Positions 1-39,325 of a stretch of DNA of 64,000 bases are shown here, piece by piece (positions within the stretch are counted from its first letter, which is position 1; every line of letters begins with the position of its first letter). Source of the stretch: Oscillospiraceae bacterium (lineage in GTDB: Bacteria; Bacillota; Clostridia; Oscillospirales; Acutalibacteraceae); the NCBI GenBank assembly GCA_015066515.1, contig SVOH01000009.1:1-64000 (forward strand). Direction: 5' to 3'. The notes beneath the pieces were generated by a model. The model saw only the letters and a list, made by a program, of their open reading frames with translations, searched no databases and had not been told where the DNA came from. Made by a program: the position numbers and the translations under genes.

Positions 1-2670
1 ACCATTTGCTACAACACATGCGTCGCGTACATGAAGATTCTTTACAGTGCCGCCTGCAAGCACAGGGATAAGACCTGCACTATCCTCACTATTAGCATAA
101 AGACCTGTTACTGCATAGCCGTCACCGTCAAGTACGCCTGCAAAAGGTCTATATGAATATTTAGGATCATCAAGAACACCGTCACCGTTAGAATCTATAG
201 CATAGTCTTTTTGATCGATCCAACGAAGGCCGCCAACATTTATGTCGTTGGTAAGCTTAAAGTAAAGCTTTTCGGTATAGTTGGTACCACCCGAGCCAAT
301 TACACGAGCAAGTGTTAACGCGTCGCTTATAAGATATGGGTCATCTTTTGTGCCCGAGCCCTGCATATTTTCATAGTTAATATATACGCCGTCTTCATGT
401 GCGCCTATCATAGTCCAGTTACCAACAGAAGAAGCAGGTTGGCTAAGACTCCAACGTGATTCGTTTGTGTAAGCGATTGCTTCTTTCCAGTTAGTAGCGT
501 GACTGTACGCTGCCGAATTACCTGTAACCGCAAGCATGCCGTCTATAACCGACCACTGTGTCCAGTTAAGGTTTGGCATTGTATCTGCCGAATATTCTGT
601 AATACCGCCTACAAGGCCTGATTTGGTAGAAGCTTCACTTGTATAGCAATTTACATATTGGGGATAATCATTTGCCTTATTGTCGGGATACACACCCAAT
701 GATACACAGTTTTCGAAATAGAAATGCTGTGTGCCCGACTGGCCAAGGTTTATAAATCCGCCTTTTCCCGTGCCTGCATCTGGAGCAAAACCGTCGGGAA
801 CTACAAGCTCGTTAGAAGAATCAAACAAGCAATTTGTAAAGCTACAAGCAGCCGGTGTGCCGTGTGAAGCAACAAAACCTGCAACACCACCAAAACCACT
901 AGTAGAGTTAGTTTGAACTCGTGAGTTTTTAACAGTTACATTGTGGATTCCAACACTTGTAACAGCAACTGTTGAACCGTTAACTGTCTGTCCACCGCTT
1001 GTGCTAGGATCAAGATCTGTATTAGTAGCCTTTGTATCATCATAACCTAGTGATGCTGTGATTACACCCGCATAGGTATATCCGGTGTTATGAATAAACG
1101 CCTTATCAAATGTAACGTTTTTAATAACGGCATCGTCCATAAGTGCAGGAACAAAACCAACACCTTCATTATTCCAACCACGGTCTACCGTTTTACTGTA
1201 AAGACCGTGAATTGTAACCCCGTTACCGTCAAACTCGCCACGGAAAGCAGTCGCCTGATCGCGAATGCCATCACCATCTGTATCGGCCGAAAACGAAGCA
1301 TTGGTAAAAAGACCCGCCGTCCAGTTGATTACTTTATTAGAACCTGCACTAACCAAATCCTTCAGTATATCAAGTGTACCGCCAACTACGGGGCTTAAAT
1401 AAATATCGGTTACGCCATCAGCTACCTTATAATATGCTTTTTCATACACTTTTACGGTAACCTTTGTGCCATTATTATCAACCTGCTTTGTCTTGCCTGT
1501 GTCAATGCGACCGCCTTCAAGCACCATCTTGCGAAGCTGCGCTGCAGTTTCAATAATATATGGGTCGTCTTTGGTACCCTTACCGCCTGCAAATTCGGTA
1601 GCGGCTGTACCGTCCCAAATATCAGGTGCTTCAATATATGTCCATCCTTCAGGTTTAATGTTTGCAGGGTATCCACTTTCACTTACATACCAAAATCCAT
1701 CTTCACTATCGGTCGCCCAATCAAGACCTGGCATGTTAACCTGCGCCATAACACCCTTCATACTCTCTGCAGGAAGTACTGTAACACCACTTGTAGATAC
1801 AGACTGATCGGTATAACAGTCTATATATGTACAGGTTTGGCCAATTTCTGTTTTAACGCCAATTGCAACAGTATCTTCAACCGTATTGCCTGTTGTAGCA
1901 TCGGTATAACCTATAATTTGCGAAATATTACCTGCGTTATCGTAAACCAAGCAATTTTTTACTGTTACTGGATCATTACCTGCATGACCAATTATAGCAC
2001 CCTTGGTGCCTGTTGAATTTATATAGTTAAGTGCTACAACGCAATTTTCTATAGTTGTAGAATATACTGTACCCCAACTGCTTACGCCAACAACTGCGCC
2101 CGCAAAGCCCGAACAGTTAGCATAGCCTTTCATAACCGACACATTTTTTATTGTGCCACCATTTATCTGATGGAAAAGGCCAAAAGTCGACTGTGAACCG
2201 CCTGTATATAAACCGTATACAGTCGCCCCATTACCGTCAAAATTACCTTGGAATGTACCGTTTGACCAATATATTCTGCAAGAAGCTGCGTTTGCTTCAT
2301 AAAAATCTTTTACTTCTGCCGCAGTGGTAAGAGCGTCAATACCACTTTTTAAAGACTCGGACTGCATATAAAATGCATCAACGCCGTCTTTTACCTTAAA
2401 GTATACACCGTCTGTAGTAACCTTATTTGCCGTAACAGCATAAAGCTGTTCGCAGGTTTCAATTATATATGGGTCGCCGGCTACACCAGTACCACCTGAA
2501 AAGCTTGTATTGCTGCTTCCATCCCAGGTGTCGTATACATAGCCATCATCTGCCGCATTGGCATTTATATTAAAGCCAATATTAGCGGTAAAGAGCGTAC
2601 CTATAACCATTGCAAGTGCAAGGGCTATACTTAATACTCTTTTAGCGCTTTTGTTTATTTTAATTTTCAT
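1..2670 (-). CDS. Large secreted GLUG/beta-helix-like surface protein, C-terminus outside window
   Basis: The reading frame is open from an ATG at 2670 to the window edge (890 codons, no stop), so the C-terminus is missing. A GAGAGG ribosome-binding site precedes the start. The N-terminus is a signal peptide: a basic stretch, then a hydrophobic segment ending near ANAA. At least three modules follow, each opening with a G-(S/T)-G-x-x-x-DPY-(I/L)-I motif. Each contains a FDGNG/LDGDG element, a GLY/GLF/GLIP element and an IKN/VKN element, typical of GLUG-type or right-handed beta-helix surface repeats. It is probably exported and binds carbohydrate or acts as an adhesin; this is inferred from fold type only. 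It lies downstream of the 41-aa ORF and the 1597-aa paralogue, probably in one operon. Whether it ends in a wall anchor cannot be seen. Confidence 0.85.
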   Translation of the reverse strand, partial: MKIKINKSAKRVLSIALALAMVIGTLFTANIGFNINANAADDGYVYDTWDGSSNTSFSGGTGVAGDPYIIETCEQLYAVTANKVTTDGVYFKVKDGVDAFYMQSESLKSGIDALTTAAEVKDFYEANAASCRIYWSNGTFQGNFDGNGATVYGLYTGGSQSTFGLFHQINGGTIKNVSVMKGYANCSGFAGAVVGVSSWGTVYSTTIENCVVALNYINSTGTKGAIIGHAGNDPVTVKNCLVYDNAGNISQIIGYTDATTGNTVEDTVAIGVKTEIGQTCTYIDCYTDQSVSTSGVTVLPAESMKGVMAQVNMPGLDWATDSEDGFWYVSESGYPANIKPEGWTYIEAPDIWDGTAATEFAGGKGTKDDPYIIETAAQLRKMVLEGGRIDTGKTKQVDNNGTKVTVKVYEKAYYKVADGVTDIYLSPVVGGTLDILKDLVSAGSNKVINWTAGLFTNASFSADTDGDGIRDQATAFRGEFDGNGVTIHGLYSKTVDRGWNNEGVGFVPALMDDAVIKNVTFDKAFIHNTGYTYAGVITASLGYDDTKATNTDLDPSTSGGQTVNGSTVAVTSVGIHNVTVKNSRVQTNSTSGFGGVAGFVASHGTPAACSFTNCLFDSSNELVVPDGFAPDAGTGKGGFINLGQSGTQHFYFENCVSLGVYPDNKANDYPQYVNCYTSEASTKSGLVGGITEYSADTMPNLNWTQWSVIDGMLAVTGNSAAYSHATNWKEAIAYTNESRWSLSQPASSVGNWTMIGAHEDGVYINYENMQGSGTKDDPYLISDALTLARVIGSGGTNYTEKLYFKLTNDINVGGLRWIDQKDYAIDSNGDGVLDDPKYSYRPFAGVLDGDGYAVTGLYANSEDSAGLIPVLAGGTVKNLHVRDACVVANG

Positions 2671-2736: not shown

Positions 2737-2862
2737 TTATCTAGGCCAAATTACGATATCATCGTCTTCATCGCCAAAGTTTGCGTTAGGGTCGCTTGTA
2801 ACGATAATATCTGTAAGGTCAAGTTCATATATTTCGATTTTAGATTTCTGGAACATATTCAT
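2737..2862 (-). CDS. 41-aa acidic small protein between two GLUG genes
   Basis: I choose the ATG at 2862 because a clean AAAAGGAGAAAT ribosome-binding site precedes it. A longer in-frame start at 2967 would overlap the end of the upstream gene and has no such site. The peptide starts MNMFQKSKIEIYEL, has a central DIIVTSDPN segment, and ends in a cluster of Asp/Glu followed by IVIWPR. It has no signal peptide or membrane segment. It lies 22 nt after the stop of the 1597-aa surface protein and 66 nt before the next GLUG gene, so it is probably cotranscribed. Short peptides with a K(I/L)E-x-(I/F) start, a (D/E)-(I/V)-I-(T/V)-(T/A)-S core and an acidic tail occur in Clostridia, but I know of no assigned function. 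It could be a short regulatory or modified peptide; the coding call rests on the ribosome-binding site and spacing. Confidence 0.6.
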   Translation of the reverse strand: MNMFQKSKIEIYELDLTDIIVTSDPNANFGDEDDDIVIWPR

Positions 2863-2884
2863 ATTTCTCCTTTTTATATTATCA

Positions 2885-5800
2885 TTATGCGCCATAACGT
2901 GCTTCGAGCATCTGGCTGTAGAACAAAAGCGCTTTTGCTGCTTCGTATCTTGTTTCGTAATAATCACATGGGTTTATTCTGTTGGCTCTGTAAGCCTCTA
3001 GTGCAAAGCCCTCTGCGCTAAATGTACCAAAGTCGGTACCGTTTACTGTAACTGAAATGCCTGTACAAAGTGCTTTTACAGGAACATCTTTAAGCCTATA
3101 AAGGTGATATCTACCTGCACCATCGTTGTTAACCATTTCAGAAGCCTTAACGGTAGCGATAACAGTATCACCAGACTTAAATGTTGCCACAACAGAATCG
3201 CTCTGCCTGTAGTCACCCGCAAATGCAAAGGTAAATGCAATATAAGGATTAACCTTTAGATTAAGGCTTGTAGCGTACATACCGTAAGTATCTGTGCTTG
3301 CGCCATATATATCGTAGTTATCAAGCACAAGTGCATCATACTCTGCCTGAAGATCAGCCGGCATATAGGTTAATTTAACAGGTGTAAGTGAAGGATATTC
3401 TCCACGGTTTCCTGTATACCATACACTATCCCAAGCAAGAGCTGGCATATTATCCCTTGCTGCCGCACCCTTCATTTGAGAAATGTCAAGTTTTGTTATT
3501 TTGTCTGCATAACTTATACTAAATGCTGTTTCAGCTACGCTTAAATCTTGGTCGGTATAAACGTTTGTATATGCTTCTGCATTACTAATTCGCTTAAAGT
3601 CGCCAAGTTTTGTTGTATTTAATGTGTATGGTGCTGTTCCAATAGATATTGAGTTTTTAATTGTTGGTGTACTACCGGTAAATCCAACAAATCCCGGAAT
3701 AGTGTCACAAGCATTTTCTGTTATATTGCCTGCAACAAAACAGTTATCTATTGTAATTGTTGGACCCCAATATCCGTTACCAACAATCGTGCCTACACTG
3801 CCGTAATATGATGAATTGTCTGCGTTTTGCGATGCTAGATAACAATTTACTACTGAGCAGTTGTTAATTGTAAGTGTGCCTGCGTTTGTTGAGGTTGTTG
3901 CCACTATACCACCAACAACATTTGAACCTCCGGTTCCCGCCGTAGATGCAAAATAGCAGTTTTTAACATTTATGTTTTCAATCACAGCGGAAGTTCCTAC
4001 AATGTGGAACAAACCACCGTTTGCTTGATTATCTTTAGGAGAATACACACCGTATACTGTAGCACCGTTACCGTCGAAGTGACCGTTAAAACTACCATAT
4101 GACCACCAAATAGAACCACCGCTTGTTTCAAAATAATTCTTAACTTCAGTAGCACTTGTAAGATTAGCAACCGTTTCTCCGCCATTCATATAGAACGCTT
4201 CGATATTATCTGCAACCTTAAAATACATATTTGTGGTGTCTATACTGCCTTTTTCTGCGCCTAAAGTATCAGTTATTCTGTTAGCACAAACAGATGCTAA
4301 ATCGTTTGCATCATATATAATATATGGATTTTCTTCAGAGCCGTTGCCCTCTTGTGCAGGGTCAACTATAAAGTCGTCGTCATAGCCGCTATATGTGCTT
4401 GCAATTTTTTCAACCGCGTCAGATTTTACAGGTGCAATTGACGGATACTCGCCCTGGGCACCATATACCCAAACATTTTCCCAGTCAAAACCGCTAGCTG
4501 TAGCCATTGCCGCTACACCCTGTAGTGACTCTTTGCTTACACTTGTAACATTATATTTTGCAAGTGTTGTGTCAGTATTATCTGCATTTTTTGCCTTTAG
4601 ATCTGCCAAATCAGAATCTGTATATACGTTTTTGAAATATCCATTTCCTATATAGAACAAATTCCAACCCTGACCACATACAGAAGAACCAATAACTATA
4701 AGATTATTTACATATGAGTTTACTGTCACGCCATCAACGGTTGAACTGTTTGCAGAGTTAGATATTACCGGCATAACCTCGCCATCTTTGTAAGCAAATT
4801 TTGTAACATTGTCTGCAACAATGCAGTTTTCCGCATGTACTGTAGGTGTTGTGTTAGCAAGCAACACACCACCAAAGCTTCTGTAGTCGCTACCGTTTCG
4901 ATTACACTTTATATAGCAATCTTTCACGGAACAGTTTTCTATTGTAATAACACCCGCATCACTGCTGCTGCTTGCAACAATGCCTGCAGTCTTTGCTCCG
5001 CCTTCGATATATGAATTCTTTAAATTTATGTTTTTAATGGTTACACTTCCAGCAACCTTGGGGAATAATGCCGCAGAATCCTGCACGTAACCCTTAGCAG
5101 TAGAACCGGTATAAAGACCATATATTGTTACGCCGTTGCCATCAAAATGGCCTCTAAAATATTCAGAAACACTACTGCTTGTGGGCAACCACCATACTGC
5201 GCCACCATTTGCTGTAAAGTAATCTTCAACCGCCTCAGCACTTGTAAGGTTAGCAACGGTTTCGCCGCCATTCATATAAAACGCCTTAACGCCATCTGCA
5301 ACCTTAAAATACTTTCCTTCTGTTACAACATAACCACGTGCTACCGCCGCAAACTGATTTGCTGTCTCTACAATGTATGGGTCATCTTGAGTACCTGTAC
5401 CGGAAGTAAACTCAGTATATTGGCTTGCATCTGTATAAGTGCTGGATGTTATTTCTGGGGTAGTATTCGATGCCAATGCATCTTTTGCTGCGTGACCGTA
5501 ATTAATAAGTGCCGCGGCAACCTTTTTGTCGGCTGTTTTTTGATCATCTGTGGTAGAGCTAGCGTATGTAGCGTTACCGTCCATAACGTCTAACGCGTAA
5601 TCTTCTATAGAGATTTGCTGTGTTTCAGAGTATACTATCTCGCTATCATCTTCACTGGTAGTGATAATTGTTGGTAGCCAAACGGTATCAATCTCTCTTG
5701 CAGAGAGATTTTCAATTGTATACATTTTAGCGCCTGCAGGCAAAAGACTGCCGGCATATGGTGAATCGGTTGCCGTAGTAAGCTTGATAAAACCTTCTTT

Positions 5801-7678
5801 ACCGGTAGTTTTTGGAACATAGAGCGCCGCATCGTCTGAATCATATGGTGGAACAAAATGGAAATTAATATCAAAGCTTCCATCATCGGCATAGGTAATA
5901 TTTACCGCCTGTAAAGTCCAATCGTAATCAGTAGTATCGCTAGCTTCAAGGTCAAAGCCTTTAAGCAAGGTCGGATACTGACCCGATTTACCTACAAACC
6001 AAATACCGTCGGTATTGTCGGCTGTGTTCCAATCAAGGTCGGCACCAGGGAATGGCCAACCGTTTGCATCACGTATAGCTTTGTTTGCCGCAGTAGCTTC
6101 GGCTGTTGCAACAGAAGCATTAGCACCAAGAAAATCGCTGGATGCAATATTACCGTTTATGTTGAATTTAACTCTATTAGCCTCGGTATTTTGAGACGGA
6201 GCAAAATTAAGTAACGCTTGAACATCTTGATCGGTAAATATGTTTACAAAGTTACCGGTATCTATATGATTGCGTGACCACGGAGCCGCTAAGTCCCACG
6301 GAGTAGCACCTATTGAAATAACATTTGTTATATAAGTGGCGCCGCTACTGTAGCCTACTAATAGCTTTTTGTTGTAACTTGTTGAAAAACTGTTTTCTAT
6401 AGTATTGTCATAAACTAAACAGTTATTTACTGTAACAGCGCCATAACATCTACCTAACAGCGCGCCACCATTCATTTCACTTGTATTGGTGCAGCTTATA
6501 TAGTTATTAGTCGATGTACAATTTTCAATTATTGTGCTGCCCGCATTACCACGCATGTTACCTATAATTGCGCCTGCCGCAGTTGAAGCTGTAAGATATG
6601 AATTTTTAATAGTAATATTCTTTATTGTTTGAGGATCGGCGGTAGTGCTACCATAGCTCGAATACGGAAACAAACCTGCCGAATAACCGTCGGAGTATAA
6701 ACCGTAGATTGTAACACCATTACCATCAAAGTTGCCATTGAAAGTGACACTCTTACTCCACCACGTGTTTGTGGCACCATTTTCCTCAAAATAAGCCTTA
6801 ACTGCTGCAGCAGAGGTGAGATCAGCAACCGCCTCGCCACCATTCATATAGAACGCGTCTATACCGTCTGCTACTTTAAAGTACTCGTGATTTGTACCTA
6901 CAACAGTCCCATTACATGTAAGTTCATCCCTACTTAAAGCGAATATCTGACCGGGGTTGGTGATTATGTACGGATTGCTTTCTGAGTTTTCTTTTGTAGG
7001 ATCAAGAAGCTCAACAGTGGTAACCTTGCCAGTATAAGAAATTGCTGTATAATCTTTGGTTTCCACCACCGGTTTTACCTGATAACCGCTCTTTGCCTCG
7101 CCGCAAAGGGTACATACTGCGCTTGAGTAAACAGCATATCCGTTATCAACATCGGTGTAAACGGGATCACCGCTTACAGAATACACGTGAGTACAGCCGG
7201 CGGTAAACTTGCCGTTTGTGGCTGTGAATTCGGTATAGTTTTCATCATACAAGCCGCTAAAGTCAAGCTCACTCAAGGTGATGTCTATGTCGCTTGTAAT
7301 AGGTGCTGAAAACACAAAACTAAGATTAAAGCTTAGTGAGGTAAAAAGCTCTGCATCAAGAGTTCTAAACTCAACCCTGCCGTCTAATACCTCACATTCC
7401 ATATTTGCGGTATCACTGACAATAGGTTTAACATCAACCGATTCATACCAATCATTAGTATTATCGATTGTGAAGATACCTGCAGCCATACCGCCCGGCA
7501 CAGTGAACTCTACCGTAGCGGTAGCTTCGGTATCATTTTTTTTGCACTGAGCGCCTGTAATAACATAAGAGGGACCTTCAGCCGCGTTTACGGTTATAAG
7601 ACAACCCAAAACGGCTGTGGCGCAAATTGCTATTGAAAGAATTATTGATAGCAATTTGGCAAATGTTTTGTTAGACAT
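2885..7678 (-). CDS. Secreted 1597-aa GLUG-module surface protein
   Basis: A signal peptide occupies about residues 1-33 and ends near VNAAEG. Residues about 35-165 form a beta-rich domain resembling cohesin-like/CBM2-CBM3-superfamily modules (alternating hydrophobic strands, ITLSELDFSG segment). Three GLUG/beta-helix modules follow, opening at SESNPYIITN, TQDDPYIVET and SEENPYIIYD. Each closes with a W-(F/V/Y)-x-G-x-x-G-x-YP(T/S)L-like segment. Two similar beta domains, one between modules 1 and 2 and one at the C-terminus, end in Ala/Leu-rich helices (AAALINYGHAA and AKALLFYSQMLEARYG). No LPxTG-like motif or C-terminal membrane helix is visible, so it is probably released or held non-covalently. 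It is first in its local operon, about 215 nt from the beta-propeller gene. Ligand unknown. Confidence 0.85.
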   Translation of the reverse strand: MSNKTFAKLLSIILSIAICATAVLGCLITVNAAEGPSYVITGAQCKKNDTEATATVEFTVPGGMAAGIFTIDNTNDWYESVDVKPIVSDTANMECEVLDGRVEFRTLDAELFTSLSFNLSFVFSAPITSDIDITLSELDFSGLYDENYTEFTATNGKFTAGCTHVYSVSGDPVYTDVDNGYAVYSSAVCTLCGEAKSGYQVKPVVETKDYTAISYTGKVTTVELLDPTKENSESNPYIITNPGQIFALSRDELTCNGTVVGTNHEYFKVADGIDAFYMNGGEAVADLTSAAAVKAYFEENGATNTWWSKSVTFNGNFDGNGVTIYGLYSDGYSAGLFPYSSYGSTTADPQTIKNITIKNSYLTASTAAGAIIGNMRGNAGSTIIENCTSTNNYISCTNTSEMNGGALLGRCYGAVTVNNCLVYDNTIENSFSTSYNKKLLVGYSSGATYITNVISIGATPWDLAAPWSRNHIDTGNFVNIFTDQDVQALLNFAPSQNTEANRVKFNINGNIASSDFLGANASVATAEATAANKAIRDANGWPFPGADLDWNTADNTDGIWFVGKSGQYPTLLKGFDLEASDTTDYDWTLQAVNITYADDGSFDINFHFVPPYDSDDAALYVPKTTGKEGFIKLTTATDSPYAGSLLPAGAKMYTIENLSAREIDTVWLPTIITTSEDDSEIVYSETQQISIEDYALDVMDGNATYASSTTDDQKTADKKVAAALINYGHAAKDALASNTTPEITSSTYTDASQYTEFTSGTGTQDDPYIVETANQFAAVARGYVVTEGKYFKVADGVKAFYMNGGETVANLTSAEAVEDYFTANGGAVWWLPTSSSVSEYFRGHFDGNGVTIYGLYTGSTAKGYVQDSAALFPKVAGSVTIKNINLKNSYIEGGAKTAGIVASSSSDAGVITIENCSVKDCYIKCNRNGSDYRSFGGVLLANTTPTVHAENCIVADNVTKFAYKDGEVMPVISNSANSSTVDGVTVNSYVNNLIVIGSSVCGQGWNLFYIGNGYFKNVYTDSDLADLKAKNADNTDTTLAKYNVTSVSKESLQGVAAMATASGFDWENVWVYGAQGEYPSIAPVKSDAVEKIASTYSGYDDDFIVDPAQEGNGSEENPYIIYDANDLASVCANRITDTLGAEKGSIDTTNMYFKVADNIEAFYMNGGETVANLTSATEVKNYFETSGGSIWWSYGSFNGHFDGNGATVYGVYSPKDNQANGGLFHIVGTSAVIENINVKNCYFASTAGTGGSNVVGGIVATTSTNAGTLTINNCSVVNCYLASQNADNSSYYGSVGTIVGNGYWGPTITIDNCFVAGNITENACDTIPGFVGFTGSTPTIKNSISIGTAPYTLNTTKLGDFKRISNAEAYTNVYTDQDLSVAETAFSISYADKITKLDISQMKGAAARDNMPALAWDSVWYTGNRGEYPSLTPVKLTYMPADLQAEYDALVLDNYDIYGASTDTYGMYATSLNLKVNPYIAFTFAFAGDYRQSDSVVATFKSGDTVIATVKASEMVNNDGAGRYHLYRLKDVPVKALCTGISVTVNGTDFGTFSAEGFALEAYRANRINPCDYYETRYEAAKALLFYSQMLEARYGA

Positions 7679-13303: not shown

Positions 13304-15061
13304 TTATTCGTTATAAGCGGGTGTGCAAACATCGATTTGATCAGGCAACTGATATAGACGAACGTGATCTATCCAAGAAGAAATCGGAAGAGTTCTGTTG
13401 TCTTCTATAACTGCCCACTGACCAAGACTGGTACCCGGTGTATAGATAAACTGGTTCATAATAAGGTAGTAGTAAAGCTCGTATCCCCAACCGTTATTAT
13501 TATTACAGTCAAAGCCATCTACACCGTCGTATGCTGTATCCCAATCACGCTCGAGCCAGCATTCACCGTCAAGATATACCTTATATCCTTCGGCTGTGTG
13601 TAAATAACCATAGGTATGGTATGTATCATTTAGTTTTTCAAGAGCTTCGCCAGTGAAAACATACTGTTGCTTACTTTCTTCAATGCTGTCGTAATGGTCG
13701 CGCCAGCTTGTGATAGTACCCCAAGTTTGATAACGATCGCCATCTTCGCGAATGTTTATCTTATTGTATTTATCAATACCTGCTAAGCTATAAATTTCTT
13801 CGCCGTTGAATAAAATCCTATTTGCAAGATTACCGTTTTCATCGTATTGTTGATATGTAATACCGTTAGAATATCTTACACCGTCGTATACAACGTCATA
13901 TGACTTATAGTATTTATGGAAGCTTACATCCCAACGATTACCGTTTGAAAATGTTTCAAAAATATCAACCTCGCAAGTCCAAGGTGCAGTAAACTGTTCT
14001 CTTGGAATAGCTGAAGATTCTTCAGGGTTACTCATAAGCCAAAGTGGCGGAAGAGAACCTTGTGTATAAGCAAGCTTAGCGTGAATTTCGATATAACCGT
14101 TTCTGTATGCCATTGTATGAGCAGTATCGTATGAGCCGTGCGTTGCGTGTGCATACTGGTCGGTATCTTCAGGCAAATAACGGATACCGCTAAGACGCAG
14201 TCTGCCGTTTTCTACGCCACAAACCTCTTCATTGTCAATAAACGCAAGATCAGGGTTGGTTGCCATATGACCCGCAACCTGCCACTTGGTTTTATCAACG
14301 TGTTCAATACCGTCAAATTCATCGCCCCATACGTATACAAGGTCCATACCGTTAACGGTCTTGGTTGAAGTAAAGTTGTCTTGTGTACCTTTAAGTGTAG
14401 CAACCTTACCCTTTTCACGCTTGATGGTTATAAACCAGTCAACCGCTTTTTCTGCCATAACAAAGTGTCCGCCCTCAAACACAAGCTTGTCGCCCTTAAG
14501 ATTTACAGCAAACTCTGTTTCTTTAAGGTTTGATTTATAGTAGGCGGTATCGCCCACTATAATCATTTTGGTAACACCTTCAAGGGCCGGGTCGGTATCC
14601 TTGTAAACAGGTAGGTCTACGTTGTCGTTATCTTTAAAAAATACTGCAAGTTTGTTTGCCAAAACGCGCATATTTGTTGTAGCGCCATGCTTGTCAGTAG
14701 ATGGTGAATAAACAATAACATAACCCTCAGGTCCTGCCCAATCAACATTTTGTGACTCGTATTCGGGATAGAAGGTTTCCTTGTGCAGTTCATCAAAAGA
14801 AAGAACCTTTTCTTCCTTTTCCTTTTTAAGAAGATCACGCTTTGCACGTGTGACTGCATCCTCTGTATTATCGTTATCATTATTGGAAATGTCAGAGTTT
14901 GTAGAATCATCTTCATCTTTGTTGCTTGGTACTACCGTGATTTTGTCACGAACTACCACTTTTTGAGGCTTCTTTTTCTTTTCTTCTTTACAGCCTACTA
15001 CAGTAAGCACCATTAAAAGAGCGAGCAAAAAACAGCTAATTCTTTTTATAGAAATTTTCAT
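13304..15061 (-). CDS. GH16-like secreted lipoprotein (cassette A)
   Basis: The 585-aa product has a type II signal peptide with lipobox VVGC (Cys24), then a Lys-rich and a Ser/Asp/Asn-rich linker. Residues about 95-225 form an alpha/beta domain (IIVGDTAYYKSNL, then a GGHFVMAEKAVDWF segment) resembling N-terminal accessory domains of some glycosidases. The C-terminal domain from about residue 240 is GH16/concanavalin-like: it opens with LVYVWGDEFDG, has YRNGYIEIHAKL, and carries E364-V-D366-I-F-E369, matching the GH16 E-x-D-x-x-E catalytic motif. GH16 enzymes cut beta-1,3/1,4-glucans or galactans; the substrate here is unknown. It is last in its operon, 21 nt after GLUG2, and is paralogous to the gene at 31010. 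Confidence 0.8.
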   Translation of the reverse strand: MKISIKRISCFLLALLMVLTVVGCKEEKKKKPQKVVVRDKITVVPSNKDEDDSTNSDISNNDNDNTEDAVTRAKRDLLKKEKEEKVLSFDELHKETFYPEYESQNVDWAGPEGYVIVYSPSTDKHGATTNMRVLANKLAVFFKDNDNVDLPVYKDTDPALEGVTKMIIVGDTAYYKSNLKETEFAVNLKGDKLVFEGGHFVMAEKAVDWFITIKREKGKVATLKGTQDNFTSTKTVNGMDLVYVWGDEFDGIEHVDKTKWQVAGHMATNPDLAFIDNEEVCGVENGRLRLSGIRYLPEDTDQYAHATHGSYDTAHTMAYRNGYIEIHAKLAYTQGSLPPLWLMSNPEESSAIPREQFTAPWTCEVDIFETFSNGNRWDVSFHKYYKSYDVVYDGVRYSNGITYQQYDENGNLANRILFNGEEIYSLAGIDKYNKINIREDGDRYQTWGTITSWRDHYDSIEESKQQYVFTGEALEKLNDTYHTYGYLHTAEGYKVYLDGECWLERDWDTAYDGVDGFDCNNNNGWGYELYYYLIMNQFIYTPGTSLGQWAVIEDNRTLPISSWIDHVRLYQLPDQIDVCTPAYNE

Positions 15062-15082
15062 ACTTATAAACCCTTCCTTTCC

Positions 15083-18000
15083 TTAAAATTTTTCAATGCA
15101 ATTTTTCTTGGATACAACAGCAATAAGTGCGCAAGCCACGATTGCTGATACAAGAATTGTTGCCACTGCGGTGTCGGCAGTTTGTGGTGATATAGGAGCC
15201 TTATCGCCGTTTACCACAACATTATTACCGCCACTTACAACGGTGCCCTTTGGAGCAATTACAATGTCATCAAAATATAGACTTGAGTTACCCGATGCTC
15301 TTATAGACACCCAGTTGGTTTGTGCCTTAAAGTCATATGTGTACTGCTTCCACTCGCCAACTCGCAAGCCTGTAGCAGTTACCATAGGCTCTACGCCTAC
15401 TTCTGTACCTAAATAATCAGGATGATTATTGTGAACAAGTGACAATGTGCAGTTGGTATCAGCCTTGTCGGTTGCTACCCAAAATACCATTGTATATTCC
15501 TGACCAACATCTAACCATTCATCATAGTTGACAAGCAAATCTGCACTCTCTGAGGAATTGTCAAGCAATTGCATTGACTTTGTTCCTGAACGAACGTAGT
15601 CAAGCTTGTAACCGCCGCGTGAACCCGGCTTGTTATAGTTCCAACGGTCTAAGTCACAATCGTAGAACGAGTAAGTATAATTTTCAAAGTTTTGAATTAC
15701 ACCATTTTGCTCCCAACCGGCAAAAAGATTAATATTACGAGGAATTAGATAATCATACGGATATTCAAGTGTAATATCAGGATATGAATACCAACCTGTA
15801 AATGTATAACCAGGACGTGAAATTGTTGGTAAGGTAATTTTTTCATATGGCTTACCCGTGATAGGTTCAACCACTATTTCAGGATCGTCGGTAACAAAAT
15901 AAATGCTTACATCGGCAACCTCAAACTGCTTGTCAGAGAACATCGAAGCGCTTCTGCCCGGCTTGTCAAATACGCGAAGCACAGGAGTACCATCAGGCTC
16001 TGTGCGCCAGGTGTTTTCCCAGTCAAAATATGGCATAGCGGTTTGGGCATCTTCGCCAACACGCCAATTTGGACGCGCTACACGTGTAGTACCAACAATA
16101 TTTTTAGTACCGTAATAATAACAATTTTCAAGTGCGTAATATGAATTAGCGGCATCTCTTATCCACTGCTGATTACCGTTACAGAATTTAATGTCATTTT
16201 GTGGGAATGAAACCGAGTTGTAAATACGTTGACCATTTGACCACGCATTACCCATAAGGCCACCGGTTTGATTATCATTAGCGCCAACTATTGTTGCTGT
16301 TACTATACAGTCACGTACAACAATTATAGCACCGCCCGGACAACCTGTACCACCGGCAGAGTTTGCCTCGATATAACAAGTATGGTCTACAAAGCAGTTA
16401 GTAAATGAAGGAAGCTTTACATATTCTCCCTCTTTGGTTACATTGCCGTCTTTATCAACTGTAGGTGGTACATAGAACTGGTCGCCAACGGTTTCAGTAT
16501 AGCTGGTTTTTTGACCATAGAAGTCATAGAACGAACTACCCATACCAAAAAGACCGCCTGCATATACGCTTTCGTCACCGATAGCAGCCTTAATATATGC
16601 TTGTGAAACACCTACGTTTTTAATCTCGGCCGAGCCACCAATTCTTGGGAACAAGCCAAGATATGAGTTTTTAGGTGTAGCCTTGTAGTTATAGTACATA
16701 CCAAATACTACGTAGCCGTCACCATCAAAATGACCTGCAAAGGAATGATAACCAAGGTCGTTGTTATGAAGCCAAGTATTACAACCAACCTTTGCGGTCC
16801 ATAGCTCGTCTGATACGTCGTTAAGATAAATGTCGCATATCATCTTGTAATAAAGGTCGCCATTACTGTTATTGCGCGCAATAGCAAGAGCTAATTGTTC
16901 ACCTGTAGCAATTAAGTATGGATCTGTTTCGCTACCTGTACCGCCTGCAAAGTTACTTGCAATCTGGCCTGACCAAATTTCACCCTGAACACCGTCGAAG
17001 GATTTAACCTTATATATTGGCATTGGGTAAGTATCGGTAGTAGCCCAAATGTCTGTAAAATCGAGCTCGGTCATATAAGTCTTGGCGTTTGCGCCGATTA
17101 TCTGACTGTTTTCGAGTACAGTTACATTTTCAAGACTGCAATCAACATCAGTATAAATTGCATCTGCTTCAATCATATCTGTACTTGCAAATGGAACCAC
17201 GCCGACGCTTACTGATGTTTCAACATTAAGCTTACCGGTTACTTCACCAACAATACCGCCAACCTTACCTGTAGCAGTAATCTTGCCTGTGAAAATACTG
17301 TTGTCCATTCTAAGCTTGGTAAATCCTACTTTACCAACAATACCGCCTGCTGTAGCATTTCCTGCAAGGGTAACGCCCTCGCCAACATATGCTGCGCGAA
17401 GTGCGGTAATATTGGTTGCATTATCCTCTACCGCGCCAATTACCGCGCCAATTACCGCGCCGTTTTCGCCCGATAAATATGAATTGTCAACCTTAACGTT
17501 ACGTGCCTCGCCGCCCGAGCCAAGCACAGGTATAAGACCTGCCGACTCGCCCGACTTAGCGTCGCTATAAATTCCGTAAACGATATGGTCATTACCGTCA
17601 AAAATACCTGTAAATGCGCCTACGTCAGATGAAGTAAGCCATTTTCTTGCCGTACTGGTCCAATTATTCGCACTTGTATCATTTATATTGATATCGGCAG
17701 TCAGTGCGTAGTATTTGCCCGACTCGCTATACATAAGCATTTGAGCAAGTCTTTCGGCTGTGTTAATCTGATATGGGTTATTTGCGCTACCGTCACCACC
17801 GGCATAAATATCTGATATAGCGCCTGTCCAAGGTTTACCCTCAACGCCTGTCTCAGATATGTGCTTGCGTGGCATTGGTATGCTGTCAGTAGCAGTCCAA
17901 GATTTTTCCCAATCGAGCACGCTTGCCGTATCCTTTACAGCATTACCCTTAATTGCATCTGCTTCAACAACGTTAACGCCAACAGCGGTCTGTTCTGCCA

Positions 18001-20056
18001 TTGTAGAAGGAGCGGCTGTATCGGTCCAAACGTTTTTAAAGCTTGTAGAATATGACTGAAGATTGTCGGCTGCAGGATAAACACCAAAGGCAAAGCCGTT
18101 CTTTACTGCGTGTGAACCACTTAAAGAACCTGCTACGAAGGCTGCATGGTTTGTTGAGCCTAAATCAGACGTAATCTGACCGCCATAAACCACGCTATCA
18201 TCAATAAATACATTACTGCTGAGGTTTGATGATGCTACCATACCGGCTGCATTCTTTGTGCTAAATACGTAACAATCAATTACTGCAATATTACGCATAT
18301 TTACAGTAGCGCCACCGTAAAGGTCAGCTACCACTGCCGCTGCGCCTACTGTTTTAGTAGTGGTTTCCGACAAATTGTCGGTTGCAGTAAATGTTGAATT
18401 TTTAATAGTAAAATTCTTAAATGTTGAATTGCCTGCTTGTGGAATAAGGGCACAACGCTCTTTTGCAGTAGATTTAATACCGTGAATTGTAACACCGTTA
18501 CCATCAAAATAACCGCTAAAGTTATTTGTTTCACCGGGATTATAAACGTTCATCTTTTTTGACTTAAGCATATTCATAGCCTCTGAATAGTTAAGCCCCT
18601 TAACGTCGTTAAAGTAAAGGTCGGTAACGCCATCAGCAACCTTATAATAACCGCTTGCATTAAGTGTTGTTACCATAAGGTAGAACTGCTCGCAGTTTTC
18701 TATAAGATATGGGTCGTCAATTGTACCTGTACCTGCGGCGTAGTTTTTAGCTGCCTTGCCGTTCCAGAAGTCCTCGCTACTTGCAGGACCACCGTTTTCA
18801 TAATACTCGTCACCCGTAGGTGCTATGTAGTAATTTTGTGGAATGGGGTAGTCATCGTCAACTACTTTCCAGTTGTATTCCCAGTCGAGATTAAGCTTTT
18901 CTTCGGCCTTCTCTCCCTTTAAATAGCCTGATTTTACTACGTTGATTTCGGGATCGGTATAGTTTAACTTGCCGTGTGTATAATGATCTACCGAGTACTT
19001 GTGTTCAACGTTTGAATAAACGTTTTTAAAGAGGTATGACGTCTGAATTGAAGGAACCTGATATCCACCCCACATTACGTCACGACCACTTGCGCCATAA
19101 ACTTGAACGTCGGCAACGATACAGTCCTCAATAGTACCCATATCATCACCACCATATACATGGCTGAAAATACCTGCGGTAATACCTTGGACTCTGCTTT
19201 CGGTGCTTGTTGCATTAAGCTCTACATCTGCTACCAAGCAGTTTTTAACTGCCGGATAATGACCGTTTACAGCGCCTAAAATACCTGACGCAAAATAACT
19301 AGCCTCTACGTAAGCGTCTCTTATAGAGCAGTTATAAACAGATGGTGCTGCTTCTGCCCAAGTAATTAAAACTGCGGCCGAGCCATATCTAAGGTCGTAC
19401 CAAGTACGATTACCGCTTGTAATACCGTTTCCTGCGTCTTTGCCTTCTTGATCATTTGAATTAATATTTGCAGTATTTACACAGTATGAATTTCTTAAGT
19501 GAACATTCTTGATTACGGCTTCATCAGCAGCAGTCGGGAAAAGTCCGGCAAACTGGTAGCCTTCGGCATAAAGACCGTAAATAAAATGACTGTCACCATC
19601 AAAGTTACCGTGGAAGGAATAATTGTTTGGAGTTATTTTACTATTATAGTAATTGCTGAAATAACCCTCGTTTTCATACCAGTTGTTAAGCACCGACCTA
19701 TCAAAATTGTCATCGCCCCACTGGTTATAGTTTGTTATGTCGTTAAGATAAATATCGGCGCCAAGCTTATAGTATGTAGCTTGGTCGTTAGCACTTAAAC
19801 CAAGGTCATATATCATTCTAAACAACTGATCGCCGTTTGTAATAATATACGGATTCAATGCGCTACCATCGCCGCTGTCAAACGGAATAGCCAATTTTTG
19901 ACTATCATAGCCGCCCCAAATCTCTGCATCTACCGGTGTTTCAGCTACAGCCTTAAAATCAACACCAATAAACACCGAAAATATTGACACCGCTAAAATT
20001 GAAAGTACCGAAAGAATTGTTATAAGTTTTCTTCCGCCGTCAATAGTTTTTTTCAT
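15083..20056 (-). CDS. GLUG2 surface protein with InlB-type repeat, CBM-like domain and anchor (cassette A)
   Basis: The 1657-aa protein has a signal peptide (about 1-38, ending near AVAE). Four GLUG/beta-helix modules open at SALNPYIITNGDQL, TIDDPYLIENCEQF, SANNPYQINTAERL and SETDPYLIATGEQL. An InlB B-repeat-like unit follows at roughly 1395-1465 (PGYTFTGWYS and NLFAGWE). A jelly-roll carbohydrate-binding-like domain (about 1470-1615) ends in SSLYFDDIVIAPKG, similar to CBM4/9-type domains. The C-terminus has SPQTAD at residue 1623, a hydrophobic helix and a basic tail, a non-canonical sortase-like anchor. Start: ATG with AAGGA 10 nt upstream. It probably displays glycan-binding modules on the wall. 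Confidence 0.85.
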   Translation of the reverse strand: MKKTIDGGRKLITILSVLSILAVSIFSVFIGVDFKAVAETPVDAEIWGGYDSQKLAIPFDSGDGSALNPYIITNGDQLFRMIYDLGLSANDQATYYKLGADIYLNDITNYNQWGDDNFDRSVLNNWYENEGYFSNYYNSKITPNNYSFHGNFDGDSHFIYGLYAEGYQFAGLFPTAADEAVIKNVHLRNSYCVNTANINSNDQEGKDAGNGITSGNRTWYDLRYGSAAVLITWAEAAPSVYNCSIRDAYVEASYFASGILGAVNGHYPAVKNCLVADVELNATSTESRVQGITAGIFSHVYGGDDMGTIEDCIVADVQVYGASGRDVMWGGYQVPSIQTSYLFKNVYSNVEHKYSVDHYTHGKLNYTDPEINVVKSGYLKGEKAEEKLNLDWEYNWKVVDDDYPIPQNYYIAPTGDEYYENGGPASSEDFWNGKAAKNYAAGTGTIDDPYLIENCEQFYLMVTTLNASGYYKVADGVTDLYFNDVKGLNYSEAMNMLKSKKMNVYNPGETNNFSGYFDGNGVTIHGIKSTAKERCALIPQAGNSTFKNFTIKNSTFTATDNLSETTTKTVGAAAVVADLYGGATVNMRNIAVIDCYVFSTKNAAGMVASSNLSSNVFIDDSVVYGGQITSDLGSTNHAAFVAGSLSGSHAVKNGFAFGVYPAADNLQSYSTSFKNVWTDTAAPSTMAEQTAVGVNVVEADAIKGNAVKDTASVLDWEKSWTATDSIPMPRKHISETGVEGKPWTGAISDIYAGGDGSANNPYQINTAERLAQMLMYSESGKYYALTADININDTSANNWTSTARKWLTSSDVGAFTGIFDGNDHIVYGIYSDAKSGESAGLIPVLGSGGEARNVKVDNSYLSGENGAVIGAVIGAVEDNATNITALRAAYVGEGVTLAGNATAGGIVGKVGFTKLRMDNSIFTGKITATGKVGGIVGEVTGKLNVETSVSVGVVPFASTDMIEADAIYTDVDCSLENVTVLENSQIIGANAKTYMTELDFTDIWATTDTYPMPIYKVKSFDGVQGEIWSGQIASNFAGGTGSETDPYLIATGEQLALAIARNNSNGDLYYKMICDIYLNDVSDELWTAKVGCNTWLHNNDLGYHSFAGHFDGDGYVVFGMYYNYKATPKNSYLGLFPRIGGSAEIKNVGVSQAYIKAAIGDESVYAGGLFGMGSSFYDFYGQKTSYTETVGDQFYVPPTVDKDGNVTKEGEYVKLPSFTNCFVDHTCYIEANSAGGTGCPGGAIIVVRDCIVTATIVGANDNQTGGLMGNAWSNGQRIYNSVSFPQNDIKFCNGNQQWIRDAANSYYALENCYYYGTKNIVGTTRVARPNWRVGEDAQTAMPYFDWENTWRTEPDGTPVLRVFDKPGRSASMFSDKQFEVADVSIYFVTDDPEIVVEPITGKPYEKITLPTISRPGYTFTGWYSYPDITLEYPYDYLIPRNINLFAGWEQNGVIQNFENYTYSFYDCDLDRWNYNKPGSRGGYKLDYVRSGTKSMQLLDNSSESADLLVNYDEWLDVGQEYTMVFWVATDKADTNCTLSLVHNNHPDYLGTEVGVEPMVTATGLRVGEWKQYTYDFKAQTNWVSIRASGNSSLYFDDIVIAPKGTVVSGGNNVVVNGDKAPISPQTADTAVATILVSAIVACALIAVVSKKNCIEKF

Positions 20057-20087
20057 TTAACTAGCGTCCTTTCTGAAAAATCTTATG

Positions 20088-20114
20088 TTACCGCCCCTAA
20101 AATAGAGGCGGTAA
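20088..20114 (-). other. Intercistronic hairpin between SBP and GLUG2 (cassette A)
   Basis: Arms TTACCGCC (20088-20095) and GGCGGTAA (20107-20114) lie in the 74-nt gap after the binding-protein stop. No clean T-run follows on the minus strand. It may partly terminate or protect the upstream mRNA, as is known for highly expressed binding-protein genes. A hairpin of different sequence sits in the same gap in cassette B. Confidence 0.7.
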
Positions 20115-20130
20115 AATCAAAAAGCTTATA

Positions 20131-21591
20131 TTATTCTCTGATACCTATATTTTTAGATACAAATTTGTTAAGTGTATCAACAGCCTTGTCAACCGAAGGT
20201 GACATAGCGTTAAGCTTAGTAGCCATCTGTGTTGGGTCGCCAAGATAAAGACCTTCCCAATCCCACTCAAAGAAGCCTGTTATACCTTGTGTTGAGTCAC
20301 CTGATGTAAACTGTGGGTGGAAATTATCCATAGAGATGCCTTCGGTCATCTTGAAGAAGAACTTTTCAGCTTCTGGAGAAATGAAAGCGCCCTGTGTGTC
20401 ATAGTTACCTGCATCGAGGTAATAGCGCAAGAACAGACCTGCAGCAACAGGTTCGTCGGCACCGCGGCAAATACCCCAAGCCTTAAACATTGATGTTCCG
20501 CCCGGTTTCATACCCTCTTTATAAGCGGGTAAAGTATAGAAGCCAATGTCAGCCCAGTTAGAATAGTTTGCGTTAGAACCTGTCTTTTTAAGTGACCAAC
20601 CAAGACCACATACAATACCGGTATTACCCTTTACAAATGGGTCAACTACAGAGTTTGTTACGAAGCCTTCTTTGTTCCAAGAAGAAATCTTTGAATATGC
20701 TGTTGCGTGTTCCGGATCCTTAAGACCATTTATGAACTTGCCGTCTTCAAACTTATAAAGCTGGAAGCCTGCAGAAGCAAGAAGATAACCGTCATCAATG
20801 TATGTACCGCGTATACCCTTACCTAAGCCGTCAATATTGTCAACAGCCTTCGCAATGGCAGCGTATGCGTCCCAAGTCCATTTACCCTGCTGGTCATATT
20901 GATATGGTTCATAAGCACCAGCACGCTTAAGTAAGTTCTTGCTGTAAACTACGCATGCGTTTTCGGTCCATACATTGTTGTTTGTATCGCAGCAATATGG
21001 CTCGCCGCCAAATGTTGTATACTTAAAGATTGACTGATTCCAGATAGGATCGGTCATATCAAGCTTTGCAGCGGTAAGTGGCTGTAAAACTGCCATTGCT
21101 GCAGGGAAGTCACCACAGGTACGCATTACGTCGATGTTTGTACCTGCCGCAATCTTACCTGCGATTTCGTTTACGTTGTCACCAACAAGAATTTCTTCAA
21201 CTGTGATGCCGTATTTCTTTTCAAAGGCATCTACAACAGGACCTGATTCGTCTGTTTTAGAAAGAATTGTTGTTGCAAAAACAACTTTTTTACCACGATA
21301 ATCCTCAGGATTTACACCGCCTGTAGTGGTATCGCCACCCGGCTTGGTATCGCCGCCCTGCTGAGTATCGCCACCCTGCTGAGTGTTGTCACCCTGCTGA
21401 GTTTCATCGTTGTCATCAACAACGTTATCATTAGTAATCGGATTACCATTTTCATCAACAAGTACTTCGTTGTCTACGTATGTAATGCCGCCTGAAGACA
21501 TTTCCTCTTCGTTATTGCTACAGCCGACAAGTGCAAATACCATAGCCAAAGCTAACACCAATGCGATTATTTTTTTAACTGTACTTAACAT
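20131..21591 (-). CDS. Extracellular solute-binding lipoprotein (cassette A)
   Basis: The 486-aa protein has a type II signal peptide with lipobox LVGC (Cys24), an acidic linker with Q-Q-G-G-(D/N)-T repeats (about residues 60-92), and a family 1 (sugar-type) solute-binding fold. That fold shows GKKVVFATTILSK, VDAFEKKYGITVEE, NEIAGKIAAGTNIDVM and a long alpha/beta C-terminal lobe with WTWDAYAAIAKAVD. Such proteins deliver sugars to ABC importers, but no permease or importer ATPase is encoded in the window. It may serve a shared importer elsewhere or act as a surface glycan binder. It lies 22 nt after GLUG1. Paralogue at 37875. Confidence 0.85.
   Translation of the reverse strand: MLSTVKKIIALVLALAMVFALVGCSNNEEEMSSGGITYVDNEVLVDENGNPITNDNVVDDNDETQQGDNTQQGGDTQQGGDTKPGGDTTTGGVNPEDYRGKKVVFATTILSKTDESGPVVDAFEKKYGITVEEILVGDNVNEIAGKIAAGTNIDVMRTCGDFPAAMAVLQPLTAAKLDMTDPIWNQSIFKYTTFGGEPYCCDTNNNVWTENACVVYSKNLLKRAGAYEPYQYDQQGKWTWDAYAAIAKAVDNIDGLGKGIRGTYIDDGYLLASAGFQLYKFEDGKFINGLKDPEHATAYSKISSWNKEGFVTNSVVDPFVKGNTGIVCGLGWSLKKTGSNANYSNWADIGFYTLPAYKEGMKPGGTSMFKAWGICRGADEPVAAGLFLRYYLDAGNYDTQGAFISPEAEKFFFKMTEGISMDNFHPQFTSGDSTQGITGFFEWDWEGLYLGDPTQMATKLNAMSPSVDKAVDTLNKFVSKNIGIRE
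21328..21399 (-). repeat. 18-nt tandem repeat encoding the SBP linker (cassette A)
   Basis: Four adjacent 18-nt units (starting 21328, 21346, 21364 and 21382) are near-identical and encode the six-residue G-G-D-T-Q-Q type repeat. The units stay in frame, so gain or loss would change linker length only. Confidence 0.8.
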
Positions 21592-21613
21592 CGTGTTCGT
21601 ATCTCCTTAATTA

Positions 21614-24600
21614 TTATAAATTTTTTATCTTGCGAGCAAATACAATTGCTGCAGCCGAAAGTGCTGCTACAACTGCTGCTGATGCAACATTTTGAGTCTT
21701 TGTTGCAGGGCTGGTAGAGCTTGTGTCACCATTAATGCCTGCATTATCGCCGTTATTTATGAAGCCGCCGTTAAAGTCTATGTCGGTGTCAGTGTCATCA
21801 TCAACAACGCCACCGCCTACGAGTTCTTTTGATGCAACCGCATAAAAACCTGTCTTATCTATGTTTGCAATAGCAACCAAGATTATGTTTTCGTCTTCGT
21901 CCTTGCGTTCTTCAAGCTTGACATCAATCATCTGAAGCTTACCGTTTTGAACATCAACGTAGTAAATTGCCGCATTGCTACCGTATATATCGCCGACTAC
22001 CATCTCTAATTTAATCGAGCCGCCCTCGGCGATTTCTTCGGTTGGTGAGAAATCGTATGCCGTAAAGTTTTTGTGACCCTCTTTTTCAAAAATTTCTTTA
22101 AGCTTACTATAATCAAGAGATTCTTCATCTATTTTGAAAATATCGGTAATTACGTCTTTGCTGAATACATTTTCGGTACCGGTAACACTAACTAAACCGT
22201 CATCACTTTCAAGTGAATAACTAAATGTTTCGTATCCGCAGCTGTTACCTTCGGCATCTTCACACCACTGGTATACGCCTTCGCCACTATCGTCAGTTTC
22301 AAGTGTGTGTTCGGCATATTCCGCCTTGCCGCAATCAGCACAATTATACCAGTGACCATTATCATCGTATGCCTGAATAGGTTTACCCTTTTCGTTAAAG
22401 TCTACATAATCGTGTACTTCATACAAACAAATTACACACTTACCCTTGTGTCCAACAGTAACTTCGGTATCGTACTGTACATCATGAGAAACTTTTTCGA
22501 ATTCGCAGCCGCAATATTTACATATCATCCAGTGTTTTTGACCGTTCATGCCATAAATAATATTGCCCTTTGAATCTTCAATAGGTAAATGTTTTTTGGT
22601 TGCCTTAAGAACTGTTTCGTCCAATTCAACAGCTGTATCCATTGCCGCCATTTTATCGTCGGTCAAAAATACTTTTTCACACTCTTCACAAGTCCAGTAA
22701 TCAATATTACCGTCCTTAGTACAAGTAGCTTCTTTAGCATCTGTCTTTACAAGTTTATGACCTTCTGCCGAACCGTGATATTCGGTGTGTACATATCCGC
22801 ACTCGCATTCAGTACGAGTGTAAGGAGCAGTTACACAATCGCCCGCATCATCTTTTACTGTTTTATAATCTGAATTTTCGTGATCACAAACAAATCCGCA
22901 AACCGAGCATGTGTATGTGTCGTTGTAAATATGTGCACTTACTGCAACACCCTTAATTCCGCACTCTTCGCAGTCTGCCTTGTGGCCCGAATAAGGCTCC
23001 GAAGCATTTGCTGTACCCTTAAGTGTATGGAAAATTTGAAGCTCGGGTGTGCCTTCATTTGCAAACCAAATCTTTGCATAATCAAGAGCTAGATTGTCAA
23101 GACTTGCTACGCCGCTCATTTCGGCTGTTGTAAGGCACTTGATTTGTTTTTCATTGTATGCAGCGCTTGTTTCTTTATCTGTGTAAACATTGTTATAACA
23201 ATCAGCGCTTGTTACAAATTCTTCTAAAACAGATGAAGTATTAGCGCTGGCTGTAGGATAAGGCAAAGTTCCTATTGATACCGAATTCTTAATTTCGGCC
23301 TTAGGAGCATAGTGCGAGGTGTTGCCGACAAATCCGCCTACAATGTTTATCGTTTCAAGCAAATTGCCCTTTGCAAGACAGTTATTTACTATTGTCTTAT
23401 TGTGTGCGACACGGCCTGCAATTGTGCCCGCTGTTCTTGAACAAGCCGGATTGGTATCACCGGCATCTGTCATATAACAGTTTTCTACCATACAGTTTTC
23501 AAAAACCAAATTTTGTGAAGTGGTTATCGCGGTTGCATTACCAACTATACCGCCTGCGCAGTGATAACCGGCAAAATACGAAGCCTTAACAGCAACGTTT
23601 TTAATTGTTACCGTTTTTTCATCATTATCGGTGTTAACGTTTGGGAATAATCCGCCATAACCCATTTTGGGGCCGTATACGTTATAAATAATAACACCGT
23701 TTCCATCAAAGTTACCGTTAAACTTAGCACCATCACTGGTCCATTTATATGCACCGTTCTTTGGTGCACTCTTAATCTCGGCCGCCGTAGAATTAAGCGT
23801 AATACCAATGGCGCCGTTCATATTGAATACAGCATTATCTGTAACCTTGAAATATTTGCCTTTACTGTCGAGTGTTGTACTGAGTGCTACATATGCCATT
23901 TGCTCAGCAGTTTTAATTATGTAAGGATCATCCTTGGTACCGGTACCACCGGCAAAAGCTGTAGCCTGTGTACCGTCCCAGCTGTCTTTCATTTGGGTGA
24001 TGGGTTTCTCGTACCCACAAGCACAGCTACTAACCATTGTATCAAAATTATCTACTAGGTTGTGTGTCTCTTCAAGAGACTTGCCACATTTTGAACAGCT
24101 TATTGAATGACCCGAATCGCCATTTGATGTGGTGGTAAGATTATGCGTTACTCTAAGGTCAGGATATTCGCCGTCAAAGGCAATAAGCTTTGACCAATCA
24201 AGTGATGGCATATTTGCCTTTGCCGCACTGCCCTTCATATCGTCAAGTGAAAGCTTTGTAACGTATCCTGTGTAAGTAGAGGCTACATCCTGATCAGTAT
24301 AAATATTGCTGTAGCAGGATGCCTTTGTAATCTTGTCCTGTATTACTTTTGTAGAACCTGTTTGCACAGTAGGATACGGTGTAGAACCGATAACAACCGA
24401 ATTTTTAAAGATACTTTCATCAGCGTAAGCTGAAGTATTACCAACAAAACCACCCTTTATATCGGTTGCGGCAATAACATTGCCAATTGCAATACATCCG
24501 TCAACTGTTACCTTGCTGTGCGCCGCGCCTGCCACCATCAAAGCACCTGTTCGATTACAAGCTGTATTGGAGTCGATGGCGTTAATATAGCAATTTTCAA

Positions 24601-25695: not shown

Positions 25696-25831
25696 TTTAT
25701 TTAATGTATAATAATTTTTGTTATTATTATATATTTATATATAATGCGTAATGATTAACATTTTGTTTACAAATTAAATTGATTTGTTTGTTATGATTAA
25801 TCAAAATCTTTACCACAAAGGAGTAGTAAAA

Positions 25832-27636: not shown

Positions 27637-27650
27637 GGAGGTAGAAAATT

Positions 27651-32785: not shown

Positions 32786-32807
32786 TCTATTCTGACCCTT
32801 CCTTTCC

Positions 32808-37793: not shown

Positions 37794-37828
37794 CAAACTA
37801 TCTCCCTTTCTCAAAATTTTACACACGC

Positions 37829-37862
37829 TAAACCCCTGCCGCTATAAGAGCGGCAAGGTTTA
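37829..37862 (-). other. Intercistronic hairpin between SBP and GLUG2 (cassette B)
   Basis: TGCCGCT (37837-37843) pairs with AGCGGCA (37849-37855), extended by TAAACC/GGTTTA outer arms. It lies in the 81-nt gap after the binding-protein stop, at the same place as the cassette A hairpin but with different sequence. No clean T-run follows. Confidence 0.7.
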
Positions 37863-37874
37863 AAGGAGATTTAA

Positions 37875-39302: not shown

Positions 39303-39325
39303 AGTGTTTATACTCCTTTTTAATA

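Follow-up and report, generated by a model that had tools for sequence, protein, structure and literature searches.

The small gene analysed here, which lies in a 64,000-nucleotide window (the whole stretch of DNA that was analysed), probably encodes the precursor of a RiPP resembling the linear polyphosphorylated peptides (LPPs), which would be matured in trans and supplied stoichiometrically as the partner of a C-terminal domain (CTD) of secreted proteins. We found that it is a conserved, multi-copy coding gene, that by its sequence it belongs to a peptide family spread over the Clostridia, that this family co-occurs with a set of maturation genes and its leader covaries with one of them, and that the peptide gene is paired with the CTD. 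Of this proposal, the maturation steps have the stronger support and are likely to hold, while it is nearly an even question whether partnership with the CTD is the function.

An earlier note on this DNA had described a 41-aa open reading frame at 2737–2862. Direct reading of the sequence confirmed the frame (minus strand, MNMFQKSKIEIYELDLTDIIVTSDPNANFGDEDDDIVIWPR) and the gaps of 22 and 66 nt to its neighbours, but the start had to be moved. Because all the other copies of the gene begin with MFxK and the spacing of the ribosome-binding site fits, the start is most likely ATG 2856: the Shine-Dalgarno sequence AGGAG (2867–2871, minus strand) lies about 10 nt from this codon and just 4 nt from ATG 2862, and the first two codons of the longer frame have no counterpart in the other copies. 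The product would then be a precursor-like peptide of 39 aa (MFQKSKIEIYELDLTDIIVTSDPNANFGDEDDDIVIWPR, 2737–2856, minus strand), encoded 28 nt behind the upstream giant gene. It has a single Trp near its C terminus and no Cys, and scans with Pfam and NCBIfam gave no match, no NCBIfam model reaching its cut-off.

The peptide gene is real, as the earlier note had supposed. Sequence searches of the window's own genome (G000; 2.0 Mb, 98% complete) found four copies that are 92–100% identical, on contigs C14 (the window), C7, C24 and C32, and divergent family members on C8 and C1. Three copies encode an identical peptide; compared two by two, they show 6, 11 and 10 synonymous codon changes and not one non-synonymous change, so selection acts on the amino-acid sequence. 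The flanks of the copies are largely unrelated, the similarity mostly ending at the start and stop codons. Reading frame and start are also conserved in relatives, a lack of which the earlier note had named as grounds for dropping the gene.

Similar short peptides with an I-x-T-S core had been expected in Clostridia, rightly, since we found a class-wide family. By sequence alone, 28 of 149 relatives have a match; in profile searches at E ≤ 0.1, members turned up in 35 of the 200 taxonomic-family genomes and in 50 of 391 of the class, with up to 13 per genome. The close relatives are uncultured Clostridia, mostly from the hindgut of goat, sheep, roe deer and water buffalo. Viral spread was considered and rejected, as viral contigs yielded no relative; plasmids yielded none with one canonical family member as the query. 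The N-terminal regions of 68 members align nearly without gaps as xxx[Y/F]xxPxIExxxFxxxD[IV][IV]x[TA]S, in which the final Ser is invariant and the Asp is conserved in at least 90%, and are followed by a variable tail. The window peptide belongs to this family, with its conserved lasso-like leader and variable tail. Its leader region (MFQKSKIEIYELDLTDIIVTS, 2794–2856, minus strand) comprises a predicted RRE-binding strand, where the YxxP motif is degenerate and reads FxxS before KIEIYEL, and the D-I-I-V-T-S motif; the leaders in this genome are of FxxS or FxxA type. The invariant Ser21 (2794–2796, minus strand) is the candidate phospho-acceptor, and the acidic tail (DPNANFGDEDDDIVIWPR, 2740–2793, minus strand), nearly the same across the copies of one genome and different between genomes, is the candidate core. 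Many-copy genomes share tail motifs among their copies, NPLTALATKTF..W.D.V in G341 (L172, L175, L184, L185) and YV..G.K.W in G340 (L164, L180, L190), and thus the tail is under constraint, not the leader alone.

LPPs, first described in 2026, have a leader motif YxxPxVLxHQxIxFETxxS with the Ser at Y+18; the PqqD-like LppB binds YxxP, LppK polyphosphorylates a Ser three residues after the leader, and the SipW-like LppS (Ser-His-Asp) cleaves (Popov et al. 2026, PMC13381572). The clostridial family resembles them in having a leader motif followed by a conserved Ser and a variable C terminus in precursors of 35–200 aa, and in its set of an HprK-like kinase, a discrete PqqD-type RRE, a SipW-like peptidase, an MsbA-like exporter and an NTP-transferase, with no cyclase recognised in the clusters viewed. 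The published motif itself is not reproduced: the two share a [Y/F]xxP-like start, reading FxxS in the window, and a terminal Ser, whereas HQ and FET are not conserved, the clostridial IExxxFxxxD[IV][IV]x[TA]S standing in place of VLxHQxIxFETxxS. The clostridial Ser is at Y+19, one residue farther, and therefore Ile or Val would occupy P1 if the LPP cleavage rule were copied exactly. Unlike LPP precursors, that of the window lies outside a biosynthetic cluster, although family members in relatives lie inside one; each precursor in this genome is paired with a CTD-bearing secreted protein, with no capsule locus at the peptide; and some clostridial relatives add a radical SAM enzyme.

Two other RiPP classes were considered and rejected for this genome. 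Paeninodin-like phosphorylated lasso peptides have a similar leader type (MKKDWTIPTLEVLDINMTMA; PMC7533575), a PqqD-type RRE, an HprK-like kinase, an NTP-transferase and an ABC exporter, but the lasso B2 peptidase (PF13471) is absent from the window's genome, and of 19 other genomes with the peptide 18 lack it too, G098 having a partial match elsewhere. No asparagine-synthetase-like cyclase was recognised by eye in the clusters viewed, and the window tail lacks the pattern of Gly1 with Asp/Glu at 7–9. Radical SAM/SPASM systems (TIGR04463, Clo7bot, PapB-like) come to mind because some same-genus relatives have a maturase beside the peptide family and the HprK-like gene. The enzyme of those clusters has no homologue in the window's genome at E ≤ 1e-20, however, and a sacti- or ranthipeptide is further disfavoured by the Cys-free window peptide. 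The relatives' maturases near the peptide and kinase (L289, L291, L292, L293, L296, L297, L298) belong to no recognised equivalog family, and the peptides of G022 and G131 have Cys in the tail; these loci look like a further RiPP variant.

In relatives the peptide heads clusters of maturation genes. Behind it, in G226, G089, G534, G539, G409 and others, come genes for an HprK/ScmC-like kinase, a PqqD protein and a signal-peptidase-like protein, mostly also with an ABC exporter and/or NTP_transf_5. A secreted protein, the peptide, the kinase, the PqqD protein, the SipW-like peptidase and the exporter and/or NTP-transferase stand in one row. The same gene types are linked in G112, G098, G022 and G131, with the radical SAM/SPASM enzyme as an extra in the latter two and in other genus relatives. 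Among the 149 relatives sampled, kinase and peptide occur together outside the genus in 18 genomes, the peptide alone in 1, the kinase alone in 2 and neither in 58 (Fisher p = 1e-14, phylogeny uncorrected); within the genus the corresponding numbers are 38, 1, 20 and 11 (p = 3e-4, likewise uncorrected), the 20 genomes with the kinase having no peptide detectable at E ≤ 0.01. All five LPP gene types are present in the window's own genome but dispersed rather than in one cluster, unlinked to the peptide copies and with none beside the window precursor: the HprK-like kinase is on contig C26 at 105.0 kb, a PqqD protein with an adjoining SipW-like signal-peptidase-like gene is on C1 at 35.9 kb, and a second PqqD protein, the MsbA-like ABC exporter and NTP_transf_5 are on C30. 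A sequence search with the kinase against the PDB gave no match, while its model (pLDDT 95) matched PEPCK and HprK/P structures in a fold search; the peptidase carries GxSMxPLL, LHRI and GDN segments, and the RREs of the clusters match the structures of LppB (9x8z) and of lasso RREs. Directly before the kinase, with a 1-base overlap, is a CapA/PGA_cap protein (PF09587; L283:8733–10061, minus strand, on C26) that weakly matches the lasso Trp epimerase MslH, and this order is conserved in genus relatives (also L284, L285, L302). A third PqqD-like protein (L225:5437–5778, plus strand, on C22) lies directly behind a large membrane protein resembling an oligopeptide (OPT-type) transporter, in an unrelated context.

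Further evidence came from covariation between leader and RRE. LppB contacts the leader Tyr through a hydrogen bond from Asp70 and the leader Pro through packing of Phe74 (PMC13381572); residue numbers in the 9x8z chain differ by 18 from those of the paper, and with this shift the residues that the paper names match within the aligned stretch. Across 37 genomes, Asp70 accompanies a Tyr leader in 11 of 12 cases and a Phe leader in 1 of 25; of all RRE columns this one scores best (p = 1.6e-7, shared ancestry uncorrected). Outside the genus, Asp is found in 10 of 11 Tyr genomes (the other has His) and is missing in 3 of 4 Phe genomes, and within the genus the sole Tyr genome has Asp. Leader Pro and an aromatic residue 74 go together in a similar way (14/3 against 2/18, p = 1e-5, shared ancestry uncorrected). 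These p-values overstate the evidence because many genomes share ancestry and the independent lineages are few. G034 has two RREs, with Ser70 on its contig C55 and Asp70 on C7, and its Tyr-type peptide match is also on C7, less than 1 kb from the Asp70 RRE. In the window's genome, the C1 RRE has Ser70 and Leu74 and the second RRE (C30) has Asp70. The pocket of the C1 RRE appears to be matched to the leader in a compensated form, and since its Ser70 and Leu74 suit the FxxS/FxxA leaders, the window peptide would be tied to this RRE although the two are unlinked. Of the options raised in the earlier note, a modified peptide thus gains support from the family context, the co-occurrence with maturation genes and the covariation, whereas nothing spoke for a toxin-like peptide.

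The other constant companion of the peptide is a secreted protein. Just upstream lies a giant gene (2885–7678, minus strand) encoding 1597 aa with a signal peptide and a C terminus that has neither a sortase signal nor a membrane anchor; its last 150 aa (2888–3337, minus strand) form the CTD, which has no Pfam family, a confident model (pLDDT 88) and no significant match of that model in the PDB. In nine genomes, 22 of 24 CTD genes have the peptide behind them, a one-to-one pairing. The two others are G009:C127, which ends at the contig end, and G034:C71, whose CTD is fused to an acidic extension (EEDDGEYDEDEDNPGANVDDEDDFTGGRI); this tail (L308, first 830 bases, minus strand) resembles the peptide tails and may represent a natural fusion. 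Conversely, every peptide of the window type with an upstream gene on its contig follows a CTD. Each precursor is the second cistron behind a CTD-bearing secreted protein, and the precursors are dispersed. At the family and class levels, a signal-peptide-like N terminus was seen in 43 of the 50 upstream neighbours that could be assessed, at a median distance of 27 nt, against a background of 68 of 198 ORFs, and 45 of 92 upstream C termini join one CTD superfamily by phmmer single-linkage. The gene downstream varies by locus, being a giant gene, a convergent kinase gene starting MKKVLAFDFGASSGRA, or others; in the window it is a second giant secreted protein gene (1–2670, minus strand) that is cut by the contig end and is found at some peptide loci only. 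The suggestion of GLUG neighbours was not borne out, Pfam finding no family in either. That of a chaperone-like role for the giant neighbours is incorrect in its particulars, since the pairing involves the CTD of the upstream giant and not both giants, but the tie to the upstream one is real.

The window's other four giants (15083, 21614, 32808, 39326) end in sortase-like signals, SPQTAD, SPATK or SPPTGE with a membrane segment and a basic tail; none of them has a family member behind it. Like sortase and PEP-CTERM sorting, the proposed system would target the C-terminal part of secreted proteins; unlike in those systems, the C terminus of the CTD giant is a folded domain with a separate peptide gene, and no sorting signal or transpeptidase was identified. 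Within the window, 13304–25216 and 31010–43192 are two similar four-gene modules (lipoprotein, giant, lipoprotein, giant, the giants with a sortase-like tail) that flank a transporter operon at 25784–30949.

Peptide and CTD differ in how they diverge. Peptide identity is 87% on average (median 95%) within a genome, 60% between genomes and 54% when one locus is compared across genomes, while CTD identity is 45% within and 40% between genomes; in the window's genome, CTDs that are 33–53% identical accompany peptides that are 92–100% identical. By these comparisons, the peptide is kept near one sequence per genome as the proteins it accompanies diverge, with G004 (peptides 42–49% identical) as an exception. 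Such uniformity would be expected of copies that all have to suit a single shared machine, and it is also consistent with recombination between copies. Palindromic short repeats (gcgagtgatattgctaaagcagtgatattg) occur 3' of peptide copies in G018 and G009 (L038, L041).

Based on these observations, we propose that the N-terminal strand FQKSKIEIYEL would be bound by the PqqD-type RRE on C1, as the covariation supports; that the HprK-like kinase on C26 would phosphorylate Ser21, following the LPP precedent; that the SipW-like serine peptidase encoded beside the RRE would cut off the leader near the T-S motif; and that the product would be exported via the MsbA-like exporter on C30. At the cell surface, the matured acidic peptide may then bind the CTD or become joined to it. 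This contact is suggested by the gene pairing, and the stoichiometric role by the fact that a CTD gene almost always comes with its own copy of a near-invariant peptide; a ratio of one precursor to each CTD gene favours stoichiometric use over a diffusible signal.

The same maturation could instead yield a free secreted peptide, a signal or bacteriocin-like molecule for which the CTD gene is just a convenient expression site. LPPs and lasso peptides, whose roles are unknown, are presumed to be diffusible (PMC13381572), and tails uniform within a genome but different between species would suit a species-specific signal. A signal, however, needs no copy behind every CTD gene, yet 22 of 24 carry one; genes for a receptor, immunity or a regulator do not recur next to the copies, and the acidic tails do not look membrane-active, so we regard this reading as rather unlikely. 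Still less probable is a small protein that stays unmodified and serves the giant in the cytoplasm, as an export chaperone or a folding partner. The absence of a signal peptide, the strict pairing with a secreted protein and the similar intergenic spacing would all fit, but it leaves unexplained why kinase, RRE and peptidase co-occur with the peptide across families and in contiguous clusters, why RRE and leader covary, and why the T-S motif is invariant.

That the window frame lies between two giant genes could point to a translated attenuator or coupling ORF tuning the downstream gene, but at other loci a convergent or unrelated gene stands downstream and it is the upstream CTD gene that is constant; together with the selection on the amino-acid sequence, this largely refutes the idea and leaves it a very slim chance. 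Short ORFs are common by chance, and a chance frame or decaying remnant might also be thought of, yet four copies, purifying selection and class-wide conservation refute it.

The precursor of an LPP-like RiPP thus remains the preferred reading. What is new here is that no maturation genes stand beside the precursor and that each copy instead follows a secreted protein with one and the same Pfam-absent CTD; a precursor family of this kind would escape a search confined to biosynthetic clusters. The natural swaps of RRE–leader specificity, Tyr/Asp versus Phe/Ser, are available in these genomes. More speculatively, and with considerable doubt, the system could be a dedicated surface-protein maturation pathway: one set of enzymes would make an LPP-like phosphopeptide in trans, and this would be fixed to the CTD of many different secreted proteins, by a covalent bond or as a tight subunit, each protein having its own precursor gene. 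Such a pathway could stand in for sortase anchoring and would be what LPPs do in Clostridia. When LPPs were described, their biological role was stated to be unknown (PMC13381572), and a large clostridial branch with its precursors behind CTD proteins would offer the first testable clue to what LPP-like peptides do.
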